A stretch of DNA of 33,108 nt, from the NCBI GenBank assembly GCA_029572955.1, contig JAKPQE010000111.1:1-33108 (forward strand), given 5' to 3'. Made by a program: the position numbers and the translations under genes. Under the pieces are notes generated by a model. It saw only the letters and a list, made by a program, of their open reading frames with translations. It did not search any database and was not told where the DNA came from. The stretch is from Pseudomonadota bacterium (GTDB taxonomy: Bacteria > Pseudomonadota > Alphaproteobacteria > Rhizobiales > JAKPQE01). Below are positions 17,100 to 30,437 of the stretch, piece by piece. Every line of letters begins with the position of its first letter. Position 1 is the stretch's first letter.

Positions 17100-17216
17100 G
17101 CGCGAATGTATTATTCCTGATCACAAACGCGCACAAATCTTATAGAGTCGCGGAACATTCGAAACAGCCATCGACCTTCGCCCCAGGCGTGCGGCGGTCG
17201 TGACGGAGAACAGCCG

Positions 17217-17684
17217 GTGAAGGTCAGGCTCGACGATATCGACTGGCACATCCTCAAGGAACTCCAGAACAACGGCCGCATCACCAATGTGGAGCTGGCG
17301 CGCCGGGTCGGCATTTCGGCCCCGCCCTGCCTCAGGCGCGTGCGCGCCCTGGAAGAGGCCGGCATCATCCGTGGCTATCGCACGCTGATCGACGAAAAGG
17401 AACTCGGTCAGGACGTGACCGCCTTCGTTCTCGTCGGCCTTTCCAGCCAGGCCGAGGCCGATCTCGTCGCCTTCGAGGAGCTGGTGCGGCGCTGGCCCTA
17501 CGTCCGCGAGTGCCACATGCTCTCCGGCGAGGTCGACTTCCTGCTGAAATGCGTGGCGCCCGACCTTCGGCATTTCCAGACCTTCATCATCGAAGAGCTG
17601 ACCAAGGCGGCTCATGTCGCCAGCGTGAAGACCATGCTGACGATCCGCCAGTCGAAGGACGAGGCGGCGCTGGCGATCGCCTGA
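17217..17684 (+). CDS. Lrp/AsnC family transcriptional regulator
   Basis: A 155-residue feast/famine regulator. The N-terminal helix-turn-helix (LDDIDWHILKELQNNGRIT, LARRVGISAPPCLRRVRALE) is followed by the RAM ligand-binding domain (VTAFVLVGL to about residue 145). It starts with GTG at 17217, with GGAG upstream. The 117-nt gap to the divergent ELM1-like gene contains TTATAG (17140-17145) as a possible -10 box. Such regulators usually bind their own promoter and an adjacent gene, so control of the ELM1-trxB unit is plausible. Ligand unknown; amino acids are usual. Confidence 0.93.
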   Translation: MKVRLDDIDWHILKELQNNGRITNVELARRVGISAPPCLRRVRALEEAGIIRGYRTLIDEKELGQDVTAFVLVGLSSQAEADLVAFEELVRRWPYVRECHMLSGEVDFLLKCVAPDLRHFQTFIIEELTKAAHVASVKTMLTIRQSKDEAALAIA

Positions 17685-17691
17685 GCCGCCG

Positions 17692-18432
17692 TCAGCCGTA
17701 GCGGTTCGGCCCCGGCGTCCCCTTCTGCACCATGAAGACCAGCAGGACGAGGAAGGCGGCGAGCATCGTGCCGAGGAACGCCAGCCCGACGACGAGGGCC
17801 GTCGTTTCGCTGTCGCCGCCCTCGATGACGGTGAGCGCCGGCATCGCCATGGCGAGGCCGAACGCGGCGACGAACGGCGCAAGCCCCAAGAGCAGCCACC
17901 AGGCGGAGCGGTCGGTGTCGTGCAGCCGGCGCACGGTGACCGACAGGCTGGGGACGAAGAGCGCGAGCCCGAGGACCGTCGAGACCGGCGTGAACTCGAT
18001 GTCGGGATCGAAGAGCGCGCCGTCGATCGCCAGCGTGACGACATTGGCGATCACGTAGAACAGCGCGAAGTACCAGTATTCCGACCGCGAACCGCGGCCC
18101 GAGAAGGTCGCGTATTTGCGCTTGAGGCAGGTGGCGACCGCCTCCTTGAAGCTCAGCGCCGGCGCCGGGCCGCCGGGGCCGATCGCCGCGCGGGCGCCCG
18201 GGGTCGGCCGGGCGGGGGCCGGTGGCGGCGGCGGTGTCGGCGAGGACGGCCGGGCCGGCGGGGCGAGTTCGGTCGCCTTGGCCTCGACCCAGTCGGCCAT
18301 GCCATCGGCCCACACGAAGGTATCGGCGCGCACCGCGCCGTTGCCGACCAGCGCCTCGATCTCGCTGCGCGAGAACGGGCCGCGCGGCTCGCGGCCGTCG
18401 GCGTAGTACCATTCGCGCGGGTCTTCGCTCAT
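17692..18432 (-). CDS. GYF_2-DUF805 membrane protein (copy A)
   Basis: A 246-residue two-domain protein. Residues about 6-52 form a GYF_2 domain (EWYYADGREPRGPFSRSEIE, FVWADGMADW), thought to bind peptides. A Pro/Ala-rich linker (about 58-90) follows. The rest is a DUF805 domain with four hydrophobic helices, preceded by the KYATFSGRGSRSEYWYF motif and including the VRRLHDTDRSAWW signature. The ATG at 18432 has GGGGGA upstream. The protein would place the GYF domain in the cytoplasm tethered to the inner membrane. It is a close paralogue of the next gene on the same strand, 116 nt away. Function of DUF805 is unknown. Confidence 0.85.
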   Translation of the reverse strand: MSEDPREWYYADGREPRGPFSRSEIEALVGNGAVRADTFVWADGMADWVEAKATELAPPARPSSPTPPPPPAPARPTPGARAAIGPGGPAPALSFKEAVATCLKRKYATFSGRGSRSEYWYFALFYVIANVVTLAIDGALFDPDIEFTPVSTVLGLALFVPSLSVTVRRLHDTDRSAWWLLLGLAPFVAAFGLAMAMPALTVIEGGDSETTALVVGLAFLGTMLAAFLVLLVFMVQKGTPGPNRYG

Positions 18433-21736: not shown

Positions 21737-22333
21737 TCAACGCCCGATGATGTTGCAGCGCAGCCAGCGCTCGATTTCCTTGTTGCCGGCCGACAGAGGC
21801 GGCCGCGGTGCGCCGACGATGCCCTCGCAGGAACCGCTCTTCGGCTTGGCGCCACCGGGCGCGGCAGCCCCGCCGCCCGCGGTCGGCACAACGCCACCGC
21901 CGATCGGCGCCGGCGCTCCGCCCTCGAGGCGGATGTAGCCGACCTGCCCGTATTCGGTGTCGATGACCGACAGATCTTCGCCGAACCTGTAGATCCGCCC
22001 CCAGAGGTTCAGCCGGCCACTGTGCGGCCTGACGCCGGAGTAGGTCCAGGTCCCGATCTTGCCGGCCCCTTCGTTGTAGCCGGTGACGGCCCAGTTGCCG
22101 TAGCTGAATTTCACCCGGTAGGTCTCGCGGCACTTGAGAGTGCCCATCGGGTCACCCGTGCCCTGCCAGCCCGCATCGTTCGGACAGGATGGCCCGGTGA
22201 AGTCGACATGGAAAGTCTCGCCGCCGGCGATCCGGTCCGCCACGGCGCCTGCTCCGGCCGGGTTGGGCTGGAGCGCTGAAAAAACGAGGCAGGCCGCCCC
22301 GGCCAACCCCTTGATGACGTTTTCGACGTTCAT
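21737..22333 (-). CDS. Putative exported protein of unknown function
   Basis: A 198-residue protein starting at ATG 22333, with GGAG 9 nt upstream. The first ~26 residues (MNVENVIKGLAGAACLVFSA, then AGAGA) look like a signal peptide. The mature part has TFHVDFTGPSCPND, KFSYGNWAVTGY and RLNLWGRIYRFGEDLSVIDT, a beta-rich pattern, followed by a Gly/Pro/Ala linker (about 140-165) and a C-terminal segment with SCEGIVG and RWLRCNIIGR. Four cysteines (two in the beta-rich part, two at the end) could form disulfides. I do not recognise a family. It sits downstream of carA on the same strand with a 99-nt gap. Confidence 0.65.
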   Translation of the reverse strand: MNVENVIKGLAGAACLVFSALQPNPAGAGAVADRIAGGETFHVDFTGPSCPNDAGWQGTGDPMGTLKCRETYRVKFSYGNWAVTGYNEGAGKIGTWTYSGVRPHSGRLNLWGRIYRFGEDLSVIDTEYGQVGYIRLEGGAPAPIGGGVVPTAGGGAAAPGGAKPKSGSCEGIVGAPRPPLSAGNKEIERWLRCNIIGR

Positions 22334-22432
22334 CTGCTCGATCTCCAGTGGAGCTTCGCACCGGTCGTGCGTGTCCACTGGCTATGGAGCGTGCAGGCGA
22401 GAGATTGCCCCGAGCGGCGGGCGCCGGCCCGA

Positions 22433-23921: not shown

Positions 23922-24371
23922 ATGCGAGAGGCATTCAACAGCGCGCTGAAAGATGCGATGCGCGACCAGGACAAGCGTCGCATGGCGACGCTGCGCCTGA
24001 TCACCGCCGCCATCAAGGACCGCGACATCGCGGCGCGCGGCGAAGGCAAGGAGCGCATCTCGGACGACGAGATCCTCGGCGTGCTTGCCAAGATGATCAA
24101 GCAACGCGAGGAGTCGGCCAAGATCTACGAGGAGGCCGGGCGGCTCGAACTCGCCGAGCAGGAGCGCGAGGAAATCGTCATCATCCGCACGTTCCTGCCC
24201 AAGCAGCTCGGCGAGGCGGAAGTGAAGGCGGCCTGCGCCGCGGTCGTCGCCGAGATCGGCGCTTCGGGCCTCAGGGACATGGGCCGCGCCATGGCCGAAC
24301 TGAAGGCCCGCTACGCCGGCCAGATGGATTTCGCCAAGGCCGGCGCGATCGTCAAGGAACTGCTGAAGTAA
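23922..24371 (+). CDS. yqeY: GatB/YqeY domain-containing protein
   Basis: A 149-residue, mostly helical protein of the YqeY family, related to the C-terminal tRNA-binding domain of the amidotransferase subunit GatB. Recognisable blocks are LKDAMRDQDKRRMATLRLITAAIKD, QREESAKIYEEAGR and the C-terminal GAIVKELLK. The ATG at 23922 has GAGGGGGG at good spacing, although the frame is open far upstream. Precise function is not established. Its position next to carA and upstream of dnaG-rpoD is common in Alphaproteobacteria; here four extra genes intervene before dnaG. Confidence 0.93.
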   Translation: MREAFNSALKDAMRDQDKRRMATLRLITAAIKDRDIAARGEGKERISDDEILGVLAKMIKQREESAKIYEEAGRLELAEQEREEIVIIRTFLPKQLGEAEVKAACAAVVAEIGASGLRDMGRAMAELKARYAGQMDFAKAGAIVKELLK

Positions 24372-24445
24372 CAGGGGCGACGCGCCTCCCCGGGGCTGCG
24401 GCGATGCAGCCGTCGACCGGCGCCGGCGGCGTGCGAGACTGCACG

Positions 24446-24521
24446 GGCATGCACCGGATGCATGCCGACGGAGACTGGATGTCGGAGCTCGTGTGATCGA
24501 CGCCCTTCCGCGTGAAGGGCG
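24446..24521. repeat. Two perfect inverted repeats after yqeY
   Basis: GGCATGCA-CCGGA-TGCATGCC (24446-24466) and CGCCCTTC-CGCGT-GAAGGGCG (24501-24521) are each 8-bp stems with 5-nt loops, within the 222-nt gap 24372-24593. Neither has a T run. They could be factor-dependent terminators or RNA-stabilising hairpins. No gene is supported in the gap. Confidence 0.45.
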
Positions 24522-24593
24522 AGACACCGTCGAGGGGTGATCGGCGCGCCTGATCGCACGAATTCGTTTTGCTCCGAACTCCGGAAAACTCCC

Positions 24594-25088
24594 ATGAAAA
24601 TCCGAGATGAAATCCCCGGGGATCACGCGGTCATCGGCCGCCTCGTTGCCGATGCCTTTCGCGACATGCCCCATGCGCAAGGCGACGAGGCAGGAATTGT
24701 CGACCGCCTTCGCGCCGCCGGCGATCTGACACTGTCGCGCGTCGCGGTCATCGCGGGCGAGGTCGTCGGCCACGTCGCCGCCTCGCCGGTAGCGATCGGC
24801 ACTCTCGAGGGCTGGGTCGGCATCGGCCCGGTCGCCGTGCTGCCGGCCTTGCAGCGGCAGGGCATCGGCTCGGCCCTGATGCGCGACGCGCTCGACCGGC
24901 TGAAGGCGATCGGCCCGGCGGGCGTCGTCCTCGTCGGCGAGCCCGCCTTCTACGGCCGCCTCGGCTTCGCGCCGGTCGAGGGGCTCACCGTCAAGGACGT
25001 GCCGCCCGAATACGTTCTTGCCGTGTCCTTCGGCGAGACGATCCCGCAGGGCGAGATCGTCTTCCATGCCGCCTTCGGGCTCGAATAG
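24594..25088 (+). CDS. GNAT family N-acetyltransferase
   Basis: A 164-residue acetyl-CoA-dependent transferase of the YhbS-like (COG3153-type) group. The acetyl-CoA-binding motif A appears as GPVAVLPALQRQGIGSALMRDAL (about residues 77-99), with the QRQGIG pyrophosphate loop. VVLVGEPAFYGRLGFAPVEG is the typical motif B with the FYGRLGF signature. The substrate is unknown. The ATG at 24594 has only a weak GGAAAA upstream; no better start exists. It begins the accessory segment between yqeY and dnaG but is separated from the ATP-grasp genes by 177 nt, so a shared pathway is only possible. Confidence 0.88.
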   Translation: MKIRDEIPGDHAVIGRLVADAFRDMPHAQGDEAGIVDRLRAAGDLTLSRVAVIAGEVVGHVAASPVAIGTLEGWVGIGPVAVLPALQRQGIGSALMRDALDRLKAIGPAGVVLVGEPAFYGRLGFAPVEGLTVKDVPPEYVLAVSFGETIPQGEIVFHAAFGLE

Positions 25089-25265
25089 GGATCCGGCCTC
25101 GTTCTGCGGGCAACCGACCGCCGGGCGAGGCCGGCAGGTCCGGCGGCGGGCGGTCGTTCGAACCCGAGCCCTCGCGGCCGCTGCCATGCGGCATGCGGTG
25201 CCTATCGCTTTTTTGCGCTATGATCGCCCGGCAATCGCGTTTCGGGTAAAGACCGCCGCCGCCCC

Positions 25266-26258
25266 ATGCAGTTCCAGCTCGCCAGACCCAATTCCCGGCA
25301 CAAGCCGCTCAACGACGCGATCCGCCTCGCCAACAAGGGATTCCTCGAACTCGCCATCTTCGGCAAGTTCCTCGCCGACCGGCGCCAGCTCCCGCTCGGC
25401 CTTCGCCAATACGGCCTCTACCGGACGATCCACCGCTTCAGCCTCCGGGAGACCGGGCGGTTTCCGAACCTCGTCGCCTGCGCGGACATCAACGATTTCG
25501 CCAACTGGATCAAGCTCTTCGATCAGGATCCGCTGATCGTCCAGTGTTCCGACAAGCTCGCTGCCCGCGACTATGTCGCCGCGAAGGTCGGACCGGACAT
25601 CCTCACGAGAATATTCCAGATCCACGAGCATTTTTCCGAGATCGACTTCGACGCCCTGCCGAAATCCTTCGTCATCAAGACCAACAACGATTCCGGCACG
25701 GTCATCATCGTTCCGGACAAGGACACGCTCGACCGTACCGAGGCCGAACGCCGCGTCGAGCGGGCCCTTTCGAACGTTTATGGCGCGGCCCACGGCGAAT
25801 GGGCCTATGCCCATATCACGCCGAAGGTCTTCGTCGAGGAGAGCCTTGCCAGCGCGGACGGAGTGCCGCCGCTCGACCATCGCTTCTTTGCCGCCGACGG
25901 CAAGGTCGGCTTCGCCGTCATCAGTTACGGTGGCCGCGACCCGCGCGAGCGCCGGGCCATCCTGGTCGACACGGACGGGCGCGACACCGGCCTCAACATC
26001 GGCGGCGGCATCCAGTTCGACGACTACCCGCTCCCCGCCAACTGGACGGAGATGATCGAGGTCGCCGAAAAGCTCGCGGCGGACTTCAAGATGGTGCGGG
26101 TCGATCTCTATTCGGCCGGCGGCGGCATCCGTTTCGGCGAACTGACCTTCTGGCCGAATGCCGGGGCGATGACCGGTCCCGACATCGTCCGCGTCGCGCC
26201 GCTCATCGACTTCGACCGCACGACCTTCAAGCCGCCCTATCGCCCGCGGCAGGGTTGA
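25266..26258 (+). CDS. TupA-like ATP-grasp protein (copy 1)
   Basis: A 330-residue protein resembling the ATPgrasp_TupA family, named after a teichuronopeptide biosynthesis gene. Such proteins are thought to form amide bonds, joining amino acids or amines to a carboxylated polysaccharide. Matching blocks in order are CSDKLAARDYVAAKVG (about 95-110), LPKSFVIKTNNDSGTVIIVPD, EWAYAHITPKVFVEE, and the metal-binding end VRVDLYSAGGGIRFGELTFWPNAGA. The usual DYKF segment is DHRFFAADGK here. A possible -10 box CTATGA lies at 25218-25223, but no clear Shine-Dalgarno site precedes ATG 25266. Its closest visible relative is the next gene. Substrates are unknown. Confidence 0.85.
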   Translation: MQFQLARPNSRHKPLNDAIRLANKGFLELAIFGKFLADRRQLPLGLRQYGLYRTIHRFSLRETGRFPNLVACADINDFANWIKLFDQDPLIVQCSDKLAARDYVAAKVGPDILTRIFQIHEHFSEIDFDALPKSFVIKTNNDSGTVIIVPDKDTLDRTEAERRVERALSNVYGAAHGEWAYAHITPKVFVEESLASADGVPPLDHRFFAADGKVGFAVISYGGRDPRERRAILVDTDGRDTGLNIGGGIQFDDYPLPANWTEMIEVAEKLAADFKMVRVDLYSAGGGIRFGELTFWPNAGAMTGPDIVRVAPLIDFDRTTFKPPYRPRQG

Positions 26259-26478
26259 GGGCCAGGCCGCTCCGCGGCCGTCGCGGCACGAGCCGGGCCG
26301 ATGTGTCGCGGCGATCTTTCGACCAATCCCCGTGCCGGACGTAGCGACCTCGCGGCGCGGCGTGCTATGCCCCGCGACAAGCCGGTCGAAAGCGCTCCCC
26401 CCCGCGCGTCGAGGCAAGTGCGGGGGACAGGTTCGCGCCGTCTCGCCGGCCTCGATCGAGAGGACGCAGCGCAGAGCG

Positions 26479-27444
26479 ATGCAGTCGATCATCAAACGAT
26501 CGCGGCAACTTCGGGAGCGGGCCGAGGCGGCCCTGCTCGATCTGCGCATCGGGCTGAAGTTCCGCTCCGACCGGCGCTACCTGCCGCTGACCGCCGGGCA
26601 TTTCGACCTCTACCGGACCGTCCACCGCCATTCGTATCGAGAACTCGGCCGCTTCCCCGATCTCGTCGCGTGCCGCGACCTCAACGACATGATCAACTGG
26701 TCGAAGCTGTTCGACCAGAACCCGGCAATGGTCGACTGTACCGACAAGCTCGGTGTGCGCGACTACGTCGCGGCCCGGGTCGGACCGCAGCATCTCACCG
26801 AGATCTTCCAGGTGCGGGACCATTTCGCCGGGATCGACTTCGAGGCGCTGCCGAAGTCCTTCGTCGTCAAGACCAACAACGATTCCGGCACGGTCATCGT
26901 CGTTCCGGACAAGGACGAACTCGATCGCGCCGAAGCCGAGCGGCTCGTCGAACGCGCCCTCTCGCAGGTCTATGGCGCGGCCCACGGCGAATGGGCCTAT
27001 GCCCATATCGTGCCGAAGGTCTTCGTCGAAGAAAACCTGGCGGATCAGAACGGGGCATCGCCACCCGACTACAAGTTCTTCTGCGCGGGCGGCAAGGTGA
27101 CCTACTGCTCGTATCTGTACGGTCGCGGCACTGCTCGGCGGGCCCAGGCAATCGACCCGATGGGCAACGACACCGGCCTCAATGCCGGGGGATTTCCTTA
27201 CGGGTCGCAATACTCCAGACCGGACAACTGGGAACGCATGATCGAGGTGGCCGAGACCCTTGCCGCCGACTTCAAGCTCGTTCGGGTCGATATCTATTCC
27301 ATCGGGGAAAGAATTGTCGTTGGAGAGATGACTTTTTGGCCGCTGGCCGGCGCCTTCAAAGGGCCCGACCTGCCTCAGATATCGCGGTTGATCGATTTCG
27401 ACCGCACCAGCGTCCGGCCGCCCTACCGGGCGAAAGACCGCTGA
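26479..27444 (+). CDS. TupA-like ATP-grasp protein (copy 2)
   Basis: A 321-residue paralogue of copy 1. Shared blocks include a near-identical LPKSFVVKTNNDSGTVIVVP, VYGAAHGEWAYAHI and LVRVDIYSIGERIVVGEMTF. This copy keeps the family's DYKFFCAGGK, which copy 1 has altered. The region after it (SYLYGRGTARRAQAIDPMGN) is unlike copy 1, so the acceptor pocket probably differs. I take the ATG at 26479 because it gives the same N-terminal layout. The frame is open to 26332, and the ribosome binding site is unclear (GAGAGG lies 16 nt away). A 220-nt gap without other features separates the two copies. It converges with the glycosyltransferase gene, 9 nt apart. Confidence 0.85.
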   Translation: MQSIIKRSRQLRERAEAALLDLRIGLKFRSDRRYLPLTAGHFDLYRTVHRHSYRELGRFPDLVACRDLNDMINWSKLFDQNPAMVDCTDKLGVRDYVAARVGPQHLTEIFQVRDHFAGIDFEALPKSFVVKTNNDSGTVIVVPDKDELDRAEAERLVERALSQVYGAAHGEWAYAHIVPKVFVEENLADQNGASPPDYKFFCAGGKVTYCSYLYGRGTARRAQAIDPMGNDTGLNAGGFPYGSQYSRPDNWERMIEVAETLAADFKLVRVDIYSIGERIVVGEMTFWPLAGAFKGPDLPQISRLIDFDRTSVRPPYRAKDR

Positions 27445-27453
27445 GGCCGGCCG

Positions 27454-28428
27454 TCACTTGCCGCTCGTCGAATTGACGGTCGCCGCGATACCGAAGAGCG
27501 AGAGCAGCGTCACGATGATCCGCCGCTGGCGCCGGGTGCGGCCGGGAATGCGGATCGCGCCGTCGTTCGCATGCTCGTCGAAGAGGTTGCGCGGGCACTC
27601 GCCGCGCCAGCCGGTGGCGCCGACACTGTCGAAAAGCTCGCGCAGCAGCGAATCCTCGGGCGGTCGCAGCGTCTTGTCGAGCTTCTGGCGCCGGAAGATC
27701 TCGTTCCACAGATGCAGGAAGGTCGCGCCGCGTACCCGCTCGCGCAGCACGGCCGTGCGGGTCGGCCGCATCAGGTCGAGCGCTTCGGTGTAGTGGACCG
27801 GATAGGCCGTCATCATCGGCGCGACATCGGCCATCAGGCCGTGGCGCTCGAAAAGCGCGGTGACGAGCTTCGGCCCCGTCTCGCCCCACCTCGATCCGCG
27901 GCCGATTTCCTCGCATCGGCGCAAGGCGTCGATGGCGGCGGGATGACCTGCCGGCAGTCGCAGCACCGCCGAGTTGGCCAGCCCCGACTCCTGGAAGGCG
28001 GCGAAGACCTCGCCGTCCGGAACGGTGTCGCCGACGAGGAAGACGTCGGTGTCGACCCACCAGCCGCCGCTTTCGGCCAGCAGCTTGTAGCGGAAGAGAT
28101 TGGCAAAGGCCGCCGGCGAGCCGGCGCCCTCGCGCGCTTCTTCGCCATAGGTGAAATAGCGCTCGGGCGGCAGGATCCGGGCGGCGTCGCACCGCTTGAC
28201 GCCGGCCGGAACCTCGAGATCGCCATGGTAGGTGTAGAGATGGAACTCGTGGCCCTTGCGCACGAAGGACGCAAGGCACGCCGCCTCGTAGGGCGTGAGC
28301 GGACCGCCGTGCCAGAAGGATTGGAAGGTCGCCAACTCGTTTGCCGTCTCGATAGTTCGAACCGTCTGGCATAAAACAGCCTGAAGCCGGGCGATTTCAA
28401 GCCCGCCAATCGACCCATCGTGCCGCAC
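27454..28428 (-). CDS. DXD-motif glycosyltransferase (capsular polysaccharide type)
   Basis: A 324-residue GT-A glycosyltransferase of the sugar-binding-DXD (GT32-like) group, often annotated capsular polysaccharide synthesis protein. The opening FQSFWHGGPLTPYEAACLASF, the RYKLLAESGGWWVDTDVFLV block with the metal- and nucleotide-sugar-binding DTD, and LHLWNEIFRR are recognisable. The C-terminus ends in basic residues and a hydrophobic stretch (RRIIVTLLSLFGIAATVN), perhaps a membrane anchor. The start is uncertain: GTG at 28428 opens the frame, but conserved sequence begins near residue 33, so TTG at 28335 is possible. It lies tail-to-tail with the ATP-grasp genes. Sugar donor and acceptor are unknown. 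Confidence 0.82.
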   Translation of the reverse strand: MRHDGSIGGLEIARLQAVLCQTVRTIETANELATFQSFWHGGPLTPYEAACLASFVRKGHEFHLYTYHGDLEVPAGVKRCDAARILPPERYFTYGEEAREGAGSPAAFANLFRYKLLAESGGWWVDTDVFLVGDTVPDGEVFAAFQESGLANSAVLRLPAGHPAAIDALRRCEEIGRGSRWGETGPKLVTALFERHGLMADVAPMMTAYPVHYTEALDLMRPTRTAVLRERVRGATFLHLWNEIFRRQKLDKTLRPPEDSLLRELFDSVGATGWRGECPRNLFDEHANDGAIRIPGRTRRQRRIIVTLLSLFGIAATVNSTSGK

Positions 28429-28468
28429 CGGTCGCGCACCGCCTGTCCCCCCGCCTCCCCCTTAGCCA

Positions 28469-28497
28469 CTGGCGCGCCGGCCCCTGCCTCCTATACT
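28469..28497 (+). promoter_or_regulatory. Candidate promoter of dnaG
   Basis: TATACT (28492-28497) is a strong -10 match, with CTGGCG (28469-28474) as a weak -35 at 17 nt. The predicted start, near 28504, is at or almost at the dnaG ATG (28506), which has no Shine-Dalgarno site. Confidence 0.5.
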
Positions 28498-28505
28498 GTC
28501 CGGCC

Positions 28506-30437
28506 ATGCGCTATCCGTCCGGCCTTCTCGAGGAAATCCGCACGCGGCTTCCGATCTCGGAGGTCGTCGGCCGGCGCGTGACCTGGGACCGGCGCAAGTC
28601 GCAGCCGGCCAAGGGCGACTACTGGGCCTGCTGCCCGTTCCATTCGGAAAAGACGCCGTCCTTCCACGTCGACGACCGGCGCGGCATCTACAAGTGCTTC
28701 GGCTGCGGCGCCTCCGGCGACATGTTCAAGTTCCTCACCGAGACCGAGGGCCTGTCGTTCCCCGAGGCGGTGGAACGGCTCGCGTCCGATGCCGGCGTGC
28801 CGCTGCCCGCCCCCGATCCGCGTGCCGCCGAGCGCGAGGAGAAGCGGGCGAGTCTCTACGACGTGATGGAGCTGGCGACCCGGTTCTTCGAGGAGTGCCT
28901 TTCCGGCCGTGCCGGGGCGGCGGCGCGCGGCTATCTTGCCGGGCGCGAACTCGGCCCGGCGCTGCAGAAGAAATTCCGCCTCGGCTACGCGCCGAACGAC
29001 CGCTCGGCGCTCAAGACCTTCCTTGCCGGCAAGGGTGTCACGGCCGAGCAGATGGCCGAGGCCGGGCTCGTCGTCTCCGGCCCGGACATCGCGGTCTCCT
29101 ACGATCGCTTCCGCGACCGGGTGATCTTCCCGATCACCGACCTGAAGGGCCGCGTCATCGCCTTCGGCGGCCGGGCGATGTCGGCGGACCAGCCCGCCAA
29201 ATACCTCAACTCGCCGGAAACGCCGCTCTTTCACAAGGGCGACGTGCTCTACAACGGCGCCGAGGCGCGGCGGGCGGCGGCGCAGGGCGCGACGATCATC
29301 GCCGCGGAAGGCTATGTCGACGTCATCGCCCTCGTCGCCGCCGGTTTTGCCGGCGCCGTCGCGCCGCTCGGCACGGCGCTGACGGAAAACCAGCTTCGCC
29401 TGCTGTGGCGCTTCTCGCCGGAACCGGTGCTCTGCTTCGACGGCGACGCGGCGGGCCTGCGCGCCGCATCGCGGGCGATCGACCTCGCCCTGCCGCTGAT
29501 CGAGCCCGGCCGCAGCGTGCGCTTTGCGCTTTTGCCGCAGGGCCAGGACCCGGACGACCTGATCCGCGCCGCCGGCCGACAGGCGATGGAGGACGTCGTC
29601 TCGGCGGCCCGGCCGCTCGCCGACATGCTGTGGCGGCGCGAGGCGGAGTCCGGCGTCTTCGACACGCCGGAGCGGCGGGCGGCGCTGGAAATGCGGATCG
29701 GCGAACTCGTCCGCGCCATCGCCGACGAAACGGTGCGCCGGCACTATCACCAGGCGCTCGGCGAGCGGCTGCGCGCCTTCTTCGGCGCAGACACCGAAAG
29801 CCGCGGGCAGCGCGGCGGGCGCGGCGGGCAGCGCCGCACCGGCGAGCGCGGCCGCGGCGGCCGGGCGAACGAGCCGGCGACGGCGAGTTCGAGCCTGCTC
29901 GGCCATCCGATGCTGGCGCGCGAATACCGGGCGCCGTTGTCGCGCCGCGAGGCGGTGCTGGTCGGTGCGGCGATCAACCACCCCGGCCTCGTCGACCGGC
30001 ATTTCGACGAATTCGCCTCGCTCGAGATCGCCCCGGGCGATCTGGAACTGGTGCGCCGCACGATCGTCGCGGCGGTGTCGGAAGATCACGGCATCACGTC
30101 GGTGGCGCTGCGCGAGCGGATCGCCGGCGCCGGCGCCGGGCCGACGCTCGAGGCGATCGACCGGATGCTCGTCTCCTGCCGCGAGTGGTACGCCAAGCCC
30201 GAGGCCGACCCGCAGGACGCAGAGGAAGCCTGGACGCAAGCGCTGATCTTGCACAAACGGGCGCACTCATTACATAAGGAACTCAGAGCCGCCGAGCTTG
30301 CCCTCGCCAACGATCCGAGCGAGGAGAACTTCGCCCGGCTCATCGATATTCAGGCCGAGCTGGCACGGGCCGATGGCACGGAGGCTTTGAGCGAAGGTTT
30401 CGGCGTGAGGTCCGGCCGATCGGGGCGGACATTTTGA
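28506..30437 (+). CDS. dnaG: DNA primase
   Basis: A 643-residue primase that makes RNA primers at the replication fork. The N-terminal zinc-binding domain has Cys43, His46, Cys64 and Cys67 (CCPFHSEKTPSF, YKCFGCGASG). The RNA polymerase core follows with YLNSPETPLFHKG, then the TOPRIM domain with Glu268 (AEGYVDVIAL) and Asp312/Asp314 (CFDGDAAG). Residues about 432-455 are an Arg/Gly-rich linker (RGQRGGRGGQRRTGERGRGG), unusually basic. The C-terminal helicase-binding domain occupies roughly 480-643. It is followed by rpoD on the same strand, the classic primase-sigma arrangement, but with a 270-nt gap containing separate control sites. Confidence 0.98.
   Translation: MRYPSGLLEEIRTRLPISEVVGRRVTWDRRKSQPAKGDYWACCPFHSEKTPSFHVDDRRGIYKCFGCGASGDMFKFLTETEGLSFPEAVERLASDAGVPLPAPDPRAAEREEKRASLYDVMELATRFFEECLSGRAGAAARGYLAGRELGPALQKKFRLGYAPNDRSALKTFLAGKGVTAEQMAEAGLVVSGPDIAVSYDRFRDRVIFPITDLKGRVIAFGGRAMSADQPAKYLNSPETPLFHKGDVLYNGAEARRAAAQGATIIAAEGYVDVIALVAAGFAGAVAPLGTALTENQLRLLWRFSPEPVLCFDGDAAGLRAASRAIDLALPLIEPGRSVRFALLPQGQDPDDLIRAAGRQAMEDVVSAARPLADMLWRREAESGVFDTPERRAALEMRIGELVRAIADETVRRHYHQALGERLRAFFGADTESRGQRGGRGGQRRTGERGRGGRANEPATASSSLLGHPMLAREYRAPLSRREAVLVGAAINHPGLVDRHFDEFASLEIAPGDLELVRRTIVAAVSEDHGITSVALRERIAGAGAGPTLEAIDRMLVSCREWYAKPEADPQDAEEAWTQALILHKRAHSLHKELRAAELALANDPSEENFARLIDIQAELARADGTEALSEGFGVRSGRSGRTF

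Follow-up and report, generated by a model that had tools for sequence, protein, structure and literature searches.

Two tandem genes for TupA-like ATP-grasp ligases, here called T1 and T2, lie beside a gene for a glycosyltransferase on a contig of an alphaproteobacterium of the Rhizobiales (JAKPQE010000111.1, assembly GCA_029572955.1), and we consider it probable that T1 and T2 are duplicated amide ligases working with this transferase on one uronic-acid glycan of the cell envelope. The transferase is of a type that we refer to as GT32-like, after the family label of CAZy. The analysis covered the whole contig, 33,108 nucleotides in length and called the window below, together with genome samples at the level of order, class and phylum. 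We observed the family membership of the ligases, an ATP-grasp fold in a model of T1, the retention of invariant residues, the duplication, the association or fusion of the two enzyme types elsewhere in the same order, and genes of the UDPG_MGDP-dehydrogenase and export types in the same genome. Although the chemistry itself is known, a TupA-like ligase with a GT32-like partner, fused to it in two relatives, looks new; searches of the open-access literature in PubMed Central (PMC) found no report of such a pairing or fusion.

Two related ligases tail to tail with a glycosyltransferase

The original prediction for this DNA placed a tandem TupA-like ATP-grasp pair and a DXD glycosyltransferase between yqeY and dnaG, and both the open reading frames (ORFs) and matches to PF14305 and PF04572 bear this out. 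T1 (25266-26258, plus strand, 330 amino acids) and T2 (26479-27444, plus strand, 321 amino acids) score 94.8 and 101.6 bits against PF14305 (ATPgrasp_TupA), both well above its curated threshold of 25 bits, and the reading frames of T1, T2 and the glycosyltransferase are all open. The start of T2 at the ATG of 26479 was chosen by alignment with T1, as its ORF opens upstream at a GTG at 26332. The two proteins are 63% identical over 307 amino acids, and because the homology is full-length a chance resemblance is excluded. In a quick tree without bootstrap they form a sister pair (SH-aLRT 100), in which T1 has the longer end branch (0.6) and T2, the slower-evolving copy, one of 0.25. PF14305 has no other match in the window's genome, a 3.76 Mb assembly that is 98.7% complete with 3.6% contamination; none of 14 control genomes had a match.

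The glycosyltransferase (27454-28428, minus strand; Gb3_synth/Gly_transf_sug type, PF04572/PF04488) ends 10 bases from the stop of T2 on the opposite strand. It measures 324 amino acids from the first GTG; its true start is uncertain, and the conserved part begins near 28320. Its match to PF04572 (Gb3_synth) clears the cut-off of 22.3 bits by a weak and narrow margin, at 24.8 bits. Both aspartates of D102-x-D104 are present in all 10 aligned homologues, the window's protein among them. UDP-sugar transferases are the structural matches of an AlphaFold2 model (pLDDT 87.2): the best Foldseek match is the glycosyltransferase domain of the effector SetA (E 9.4e-8), followed by YeGT and glycogenin (E about 1e-5), all of which belong to the GT-A class. 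A second GT32-like gene, 60% identical, is found elsewhere in the window's genome (contig C53), where it sits with two GT4 genes and transposase genes in a small island (L121:4254-10307).

Recurrent association of GT32-like transferases with TupA-like ligases

Any TupA-like ligase is found in just 30 of the 397 genomes of the order sample (48 matches at E 1e-10). The closest glycosyltransferase matches in the same sample number 14, with E below 1e-30, in 12 genomes including that of the window, and in four cases a TupA-like ligase forms part of the ORF or lies no more than 3 kb away: in the window itself and in the genomes G176, G334 and G038. These order-sample searches with the ligase and with the transferase constitute the independent finds of the association, since the hidden Markov models (HMMs) used for the neighbour scans reported below (27 ligase loci, 14 transferase matches and the phylum sample) were built from five sequences each, including those of G176, G334 and G038.

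In the order sample the nearest relatives found are those of G176, a ligase 43-45% and a transferase 46% identical to those of the window, in a cassette of GT32-like, SHMT-like and TupA-like genes (L040:7104-10399) in which transferase and ligase stand 1.3 kb apart around the SHMT-like gene. The cassette differs from the window in having one ligase, the extra SHMT-like gene and another insertion site. The SHMT-like gene (L040:8113-9501) is divergent, with 60.5 bits against PF00464, and its product is a candidate amine supplier; one protein in the window's genome matches it, at 27% identity.

In G334 (L122:9161-10912) and G038 (L123:5841-7592) the two enzymes are fused into proteins of 584 amino acids that are 51% identical to each other, with a transferase part 39% identical to the window's enzyme. 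The fusions thus join the same type of glycosyltransferase to a TupA-like ligase, although as one polypeptide with a single ligase domain, and one of another TupA clade. The fused ligases fall into a small group (SH-aLRT 99) separate from the 21-row clade (SH-aLRT 100) that contains T1 and T2, which suggests that more than one joining event has brought this type of transferase and TupA-like ligases together. By eye, the fusion genes sit among unrelated-looking genes, including a polyamine-type ABC transporter, a Trk-type transporter and dcd. The association has been seen in one order only.

Conserved and diverged parts of the two ligases

We modelled T1 with AlphaFold2 from an alignment of TupA-like homologues (A4), and the model, with a mean pLDDT of 91.8, has an ATP-grasp fold. 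Foldseek placed LysX/ArgX (E 1.4e-6) and RimK first, and VIA-align placed D-Ala-D-Ala ligase first (Z 13.5, root mean square deviation 3.5, 211 aligned residues), ArgX scoring nearly as high (Z 12.5, deviation 3.6, 211 aligned). These enzymes are amide or peptide ligases that have the fold in common with T1 but act on other substrates, at identities of about 8-18% in the listed fold alignments. Among solved structures no convincing sequence relative was found: T1 alone gave no match, and a three-row profile gave two unrelated matches at E 1 and 1.6.

Across 26 other homologues in the A4 alignment, from which one locus with two overlapping frames (L149) was left out, twelve residues are invariant (T1 numbering: L84, D96, K97, L131, K138, Y181, E191, G212, P257, D280, E292 and T294). 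T1 and T2 each keep all twelve, in agreement with the expectation that they share catalytic blocks, and both look functional from their sequences; a copy without ATP-binding residues had been named as a finding that would count against the pair, and in the alignment neither copy loses an invariant residue. The ratio dN/dS between T1 and T2 is 0.41 (our own Nei-Gojobori script).

The predicted contrast between DHRF in T1 and DYKF in T2 is real and specific to one copy. At 77 columns conserved in at least 80% of 19 close relatives, there are 15 deviations in T1 and 11 in T2, ten being common to both. The changes private to T1 are H48Q, I79A, K206R, C209A and R223G, and the last three are located in the DYKF strand and in the loop that comes after the following strand. 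The lysine of DYKF (position 206) is present in T2 and in 19 of 19 close relatives, and in 24 of the 26 aligned homologues besides T1 and T2, one remaining row having R and one E. The change from lysine to arginine in T1 is mild and conservative. Since T1 has arginine for this near-invariant lysine, the two ligases may differ in substrate, either in the amine or in the acceptor.

Distribution and neighbours of TupA-like ligases

A scan of contigs with a two-row profile found no relative of the ligases, and the same scan with a three-row profile found 27 loci. Close relatives of T1 and T2 (34-51% identical to T2) come from Cyanobacteriota, Kiritimatiellota, Thermodesulfobacteriota, Verrucomicrobiota, Pseudomonadota, Bacteroidota and others, and this scatter over many phyla suggests horizontal spread. 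TupA-like matches occur in 133 plasmid records, all under 60% identity, and in two unannotated phage records, also under 60%. The two-ligase arrangement turned out to be less exceptional than first supposed: of the 30 genomes of the order with a match, five have a second copy no more than 6 kb from the first, that of the window being one of them, and further tandem copies lie on a Pseudanabaenaceae contig, on an Abditibacteriota contig and in the genome G625. A metagenome-assembled genome of Abditibacteriota has four TupA-like genes in tandem (L153:237-4347).

We counted neighbours at 18 of the 27 loci, leaving out nine more distant ones (L150-L158). The 64 neighbour proteins or pieces, two of which lie N-terminal to the ligase within its own ORF, include Glycos_transf_1 (12), Polysacc_synt (6) and PGA_cap (3), along with sugar epimerases and dehydratases and ABC transporters; these names come from the 25 families listed out of 60. 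The neighbours of these 18 close relatives are therefore rich in polysaccharide genes, the absence of which would have spoken against a role in glycan synthesis, but this genome is the only one in which we saw the exact pair. In Lyngbya confervoides a PGA_cap domain is fused to a close relative of T1 and T2 (L133:6897-9023), an arrangement that recalls polyglutamate-glucuronate chemistry, and in a member of the Saprospiraceae (L142) a close relative is fused to a GT2 domain. At a Bradyrhizobiaceae locus (L140) no glycosyltransferase was found among the scanned neighbours, and TRAP-transporter genes and an acyltransferase-SGNH gene adjoin the ligase.

The insertion site between yqeY and dnaG

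The gap between yqeY (23922-24371, plus strand; PF09424, 162 bits) and dnaG (28506-30437, plus strand; TIGR01391, 414 bits) holds four genes, namely a GNAT acetyltransferase (24588-25088, plus strand; PF13508/PF00583), T1, T2 and the glycosyltransferase. The GNAT enzyme is at most a possible partner of the ligases. The carA, yqeY, dnaG and rpoD genes of the window match those of G001, the only other same-family genome in the sample, at 68-86%, which supports assigning the contig to this organism. G001 has these genes in the same order with a gap of about 1.4 kb; it is 84% complete with this interval present, and no TupA-like match was found in it. The gap measures 3.7 kb in G006, 5.4 kb in G007 and 0.1 kb in G014, and its content differs in each of the four relatives examined. 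The insertion site is incidental, and the meaning once read into the replication neighbours is not supported: we rejected a link of the ligases to DNA replication on account of the variable size and content of the gap. We also rejected base composition as a sign of recent insertion, as the GC content of the gap shows no clear departure. ARAGORN found no tRNA in the window as a mark of an integration site, and positions 24300-28600 gave no sigma-70-like promoter match and four terminator-like sites against 2.6 expected. Elsewhere in the window, the frames 21740-22378 and 17124-18044 (both minus strand) have no Pfam match at E 0.001, and the latter may not be a gene.

A proposed reaction and its precedents

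The closest assayed precedent is Cj1438 of the HS:2 capsule of Campylobacter jejuni NCTC 11168, in which a GT2 transferase and a TupA-like domain with the ATP-grasp fold form one polypeptide. Two papers describe how its C-terminal TupA-like domain joins the C6 carboxylate of glucuronic acid to (S)-serinol-phosphate or ethanolamine-phosphate, acting after transfer of the glucuronic acid to the growing chain, UDP-glucuronic acid not being a substrate (PMC11800379, PMC11800397). No other assayed TupA-like ligase surfaced in our open-access literature searches. The notion that TupA is known from a teichuronopeptide pathway alone is true of the name and not of the family, given that Cj1438 amidates capsular glucuronic acid. 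The namesake of PF14305 is TupA of Bacillus halodurans, and teichuronopeptide is described as a polyglutamate-polyglucuronate product of an alkaliphile (PMC8153356). Amides of uronic acids have other precedents: for the O antigens of Proteus, galacturonic acid amidated with lysine or threonine is discussed (PMC7767033), and a title in a reference list names a glucuronosyl-diacylglycerol taurineamide of Hyphomonas.

By analogy with Cj1438, the glycosyltransferase would add a sugar from a UDP-sugar to a cell-envelope glycan, and the ligases would activate a uronic-acid carboxylate with ATP and join it to an amine, either an amino acid or an amino alcohol. T2 keeps the common active-site segment, and T1, diverged in the DYKF strand and the nearby loop, would probably take a different amine or acceptor. 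The substrates, the order of the steps and the division of labour are those that we infer. Elsewhere in the genome, two UDPG_MGDP_dh genes over the cut-off lie on contig C117, and the stretch that separates them holds glycosyltransferase, epimerase, FkbM-methyltransferase and borderline sulfotransferase genes. There are also two Poly_export genes; sub-cut-off PF03721 matches on contigs C25 and C130 were not used. As for the surface-polysaccharide decoration first proposed, a functional link to a glycosyltransferase is supported by the cassette and the fusions, and amide decoration of a glycan by analogy; the product could be a polysaccharide, a lipopolysaccharide core or a glycolipid.

Weighing the explanations

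Cj1438, likened to T1 and T2 by description rather than by alignment, has a GT2 partner and a capsule cluster with amine-supply genes; the window has a GT32-like partner, separate genes, a duplicated ligase and no adjoining amine-supply gene that we recognised. Several observations weigh against our interpretation. The structural matches of the transferase model are moderate (TM about 0.4), the transferase part of the fusion is named by Pfam in G038 but in G334 by BLAST and HMM only, not by Pfam at E 0.001, and the ligase genes sit among housekeeping genes in a context that names no glycan. The full set of T1, T2 and transferase was found in the window's genome only. No TupA-like match was found near the other 10 of the 14 closest transferase matches, the genome's second copy included (at least 1.5 kb scanned on each side, except on one 3.4 kb contig that ends early), or within 1.5 kb of this type of transferase in 14 other genomes of the phylum sample, so the transferase also occurs without a ligase. 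No GT32-like gene appeared in the examined DNA of the 27 TupA-like loci. In the class sample a fusion profile at 1e-20 matched 7 of 385 genomes, including the window's, with no match spanning both domains, and none of 79 matching plasmid records covers 80% of the fusion query.

One may postulate that the glycosyltransferase has no functional tie to the ligases and merely occupies the same insertion site; their opposite strands, the variable gap and the lack of the pairing at the phylum-sample transferase loci and the 27 ligase loci speak for such a scenario, yet the fused proteins of G334 and G038 and the G176 cassette argue otherwise, and we regard it as rather unlikely. T1 could also be a decaying or regulatory copy, with T2 alone active. 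Its arginine at a position where every close relative keeps lysine and its end branch, more than twice as long as that of T2, would fit this, but T1 is intact and retains every invariant residue, the dN/dS between the copies is 0.41, and its substitution is a conservative one seen in another aligned row; we judge this idea unlikely. We find it still less probable that the ligases join glutamate or polyglutamate to polyglucuronate, as reported for the TUP polymer, which tupA of Bacillus halodurans serves. The Lyngbya fusion, itself one of the three PGA_cap matches among the 64 neighbours, speaks for such a product, but the nearly complete genome of the window has no PGA_cap match at E 0.001 (7 of the 14 control genomes have one), and a polyglutamate product is disfavoured for this reason. 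Duplicated amide ligases acting with the GT32-like transferase on one envelope glycan thus remain the explanation that we prefer.

A bolder extension, which we offer as a doubtful idea, is that a GT32-like transferase and a TupA-like ligase form a small portable module, which would attach a uronic acid to an envelope acceptor and amidate it at once, outside polysaccharide clusters, perhaps on a lipopolysaccharide core or on a glucuronosyl glycolipid of the Hyphomonas taurineamide type. In this genome a duplicated ligase with one copy shifted to a second amine would then write a two-amide code on one sugar. The fusions and the cassette name a partner enzyme, and hence a testable reaction, for an orphan group of ligases, and the duplicate pair, altered in an active-site segment, provides a natural test of how the amine or acceptor is chosen. 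Amide caps take negative charge off acidic glycans, which bears generally on immune recognition, phage adsorption and metal binding.

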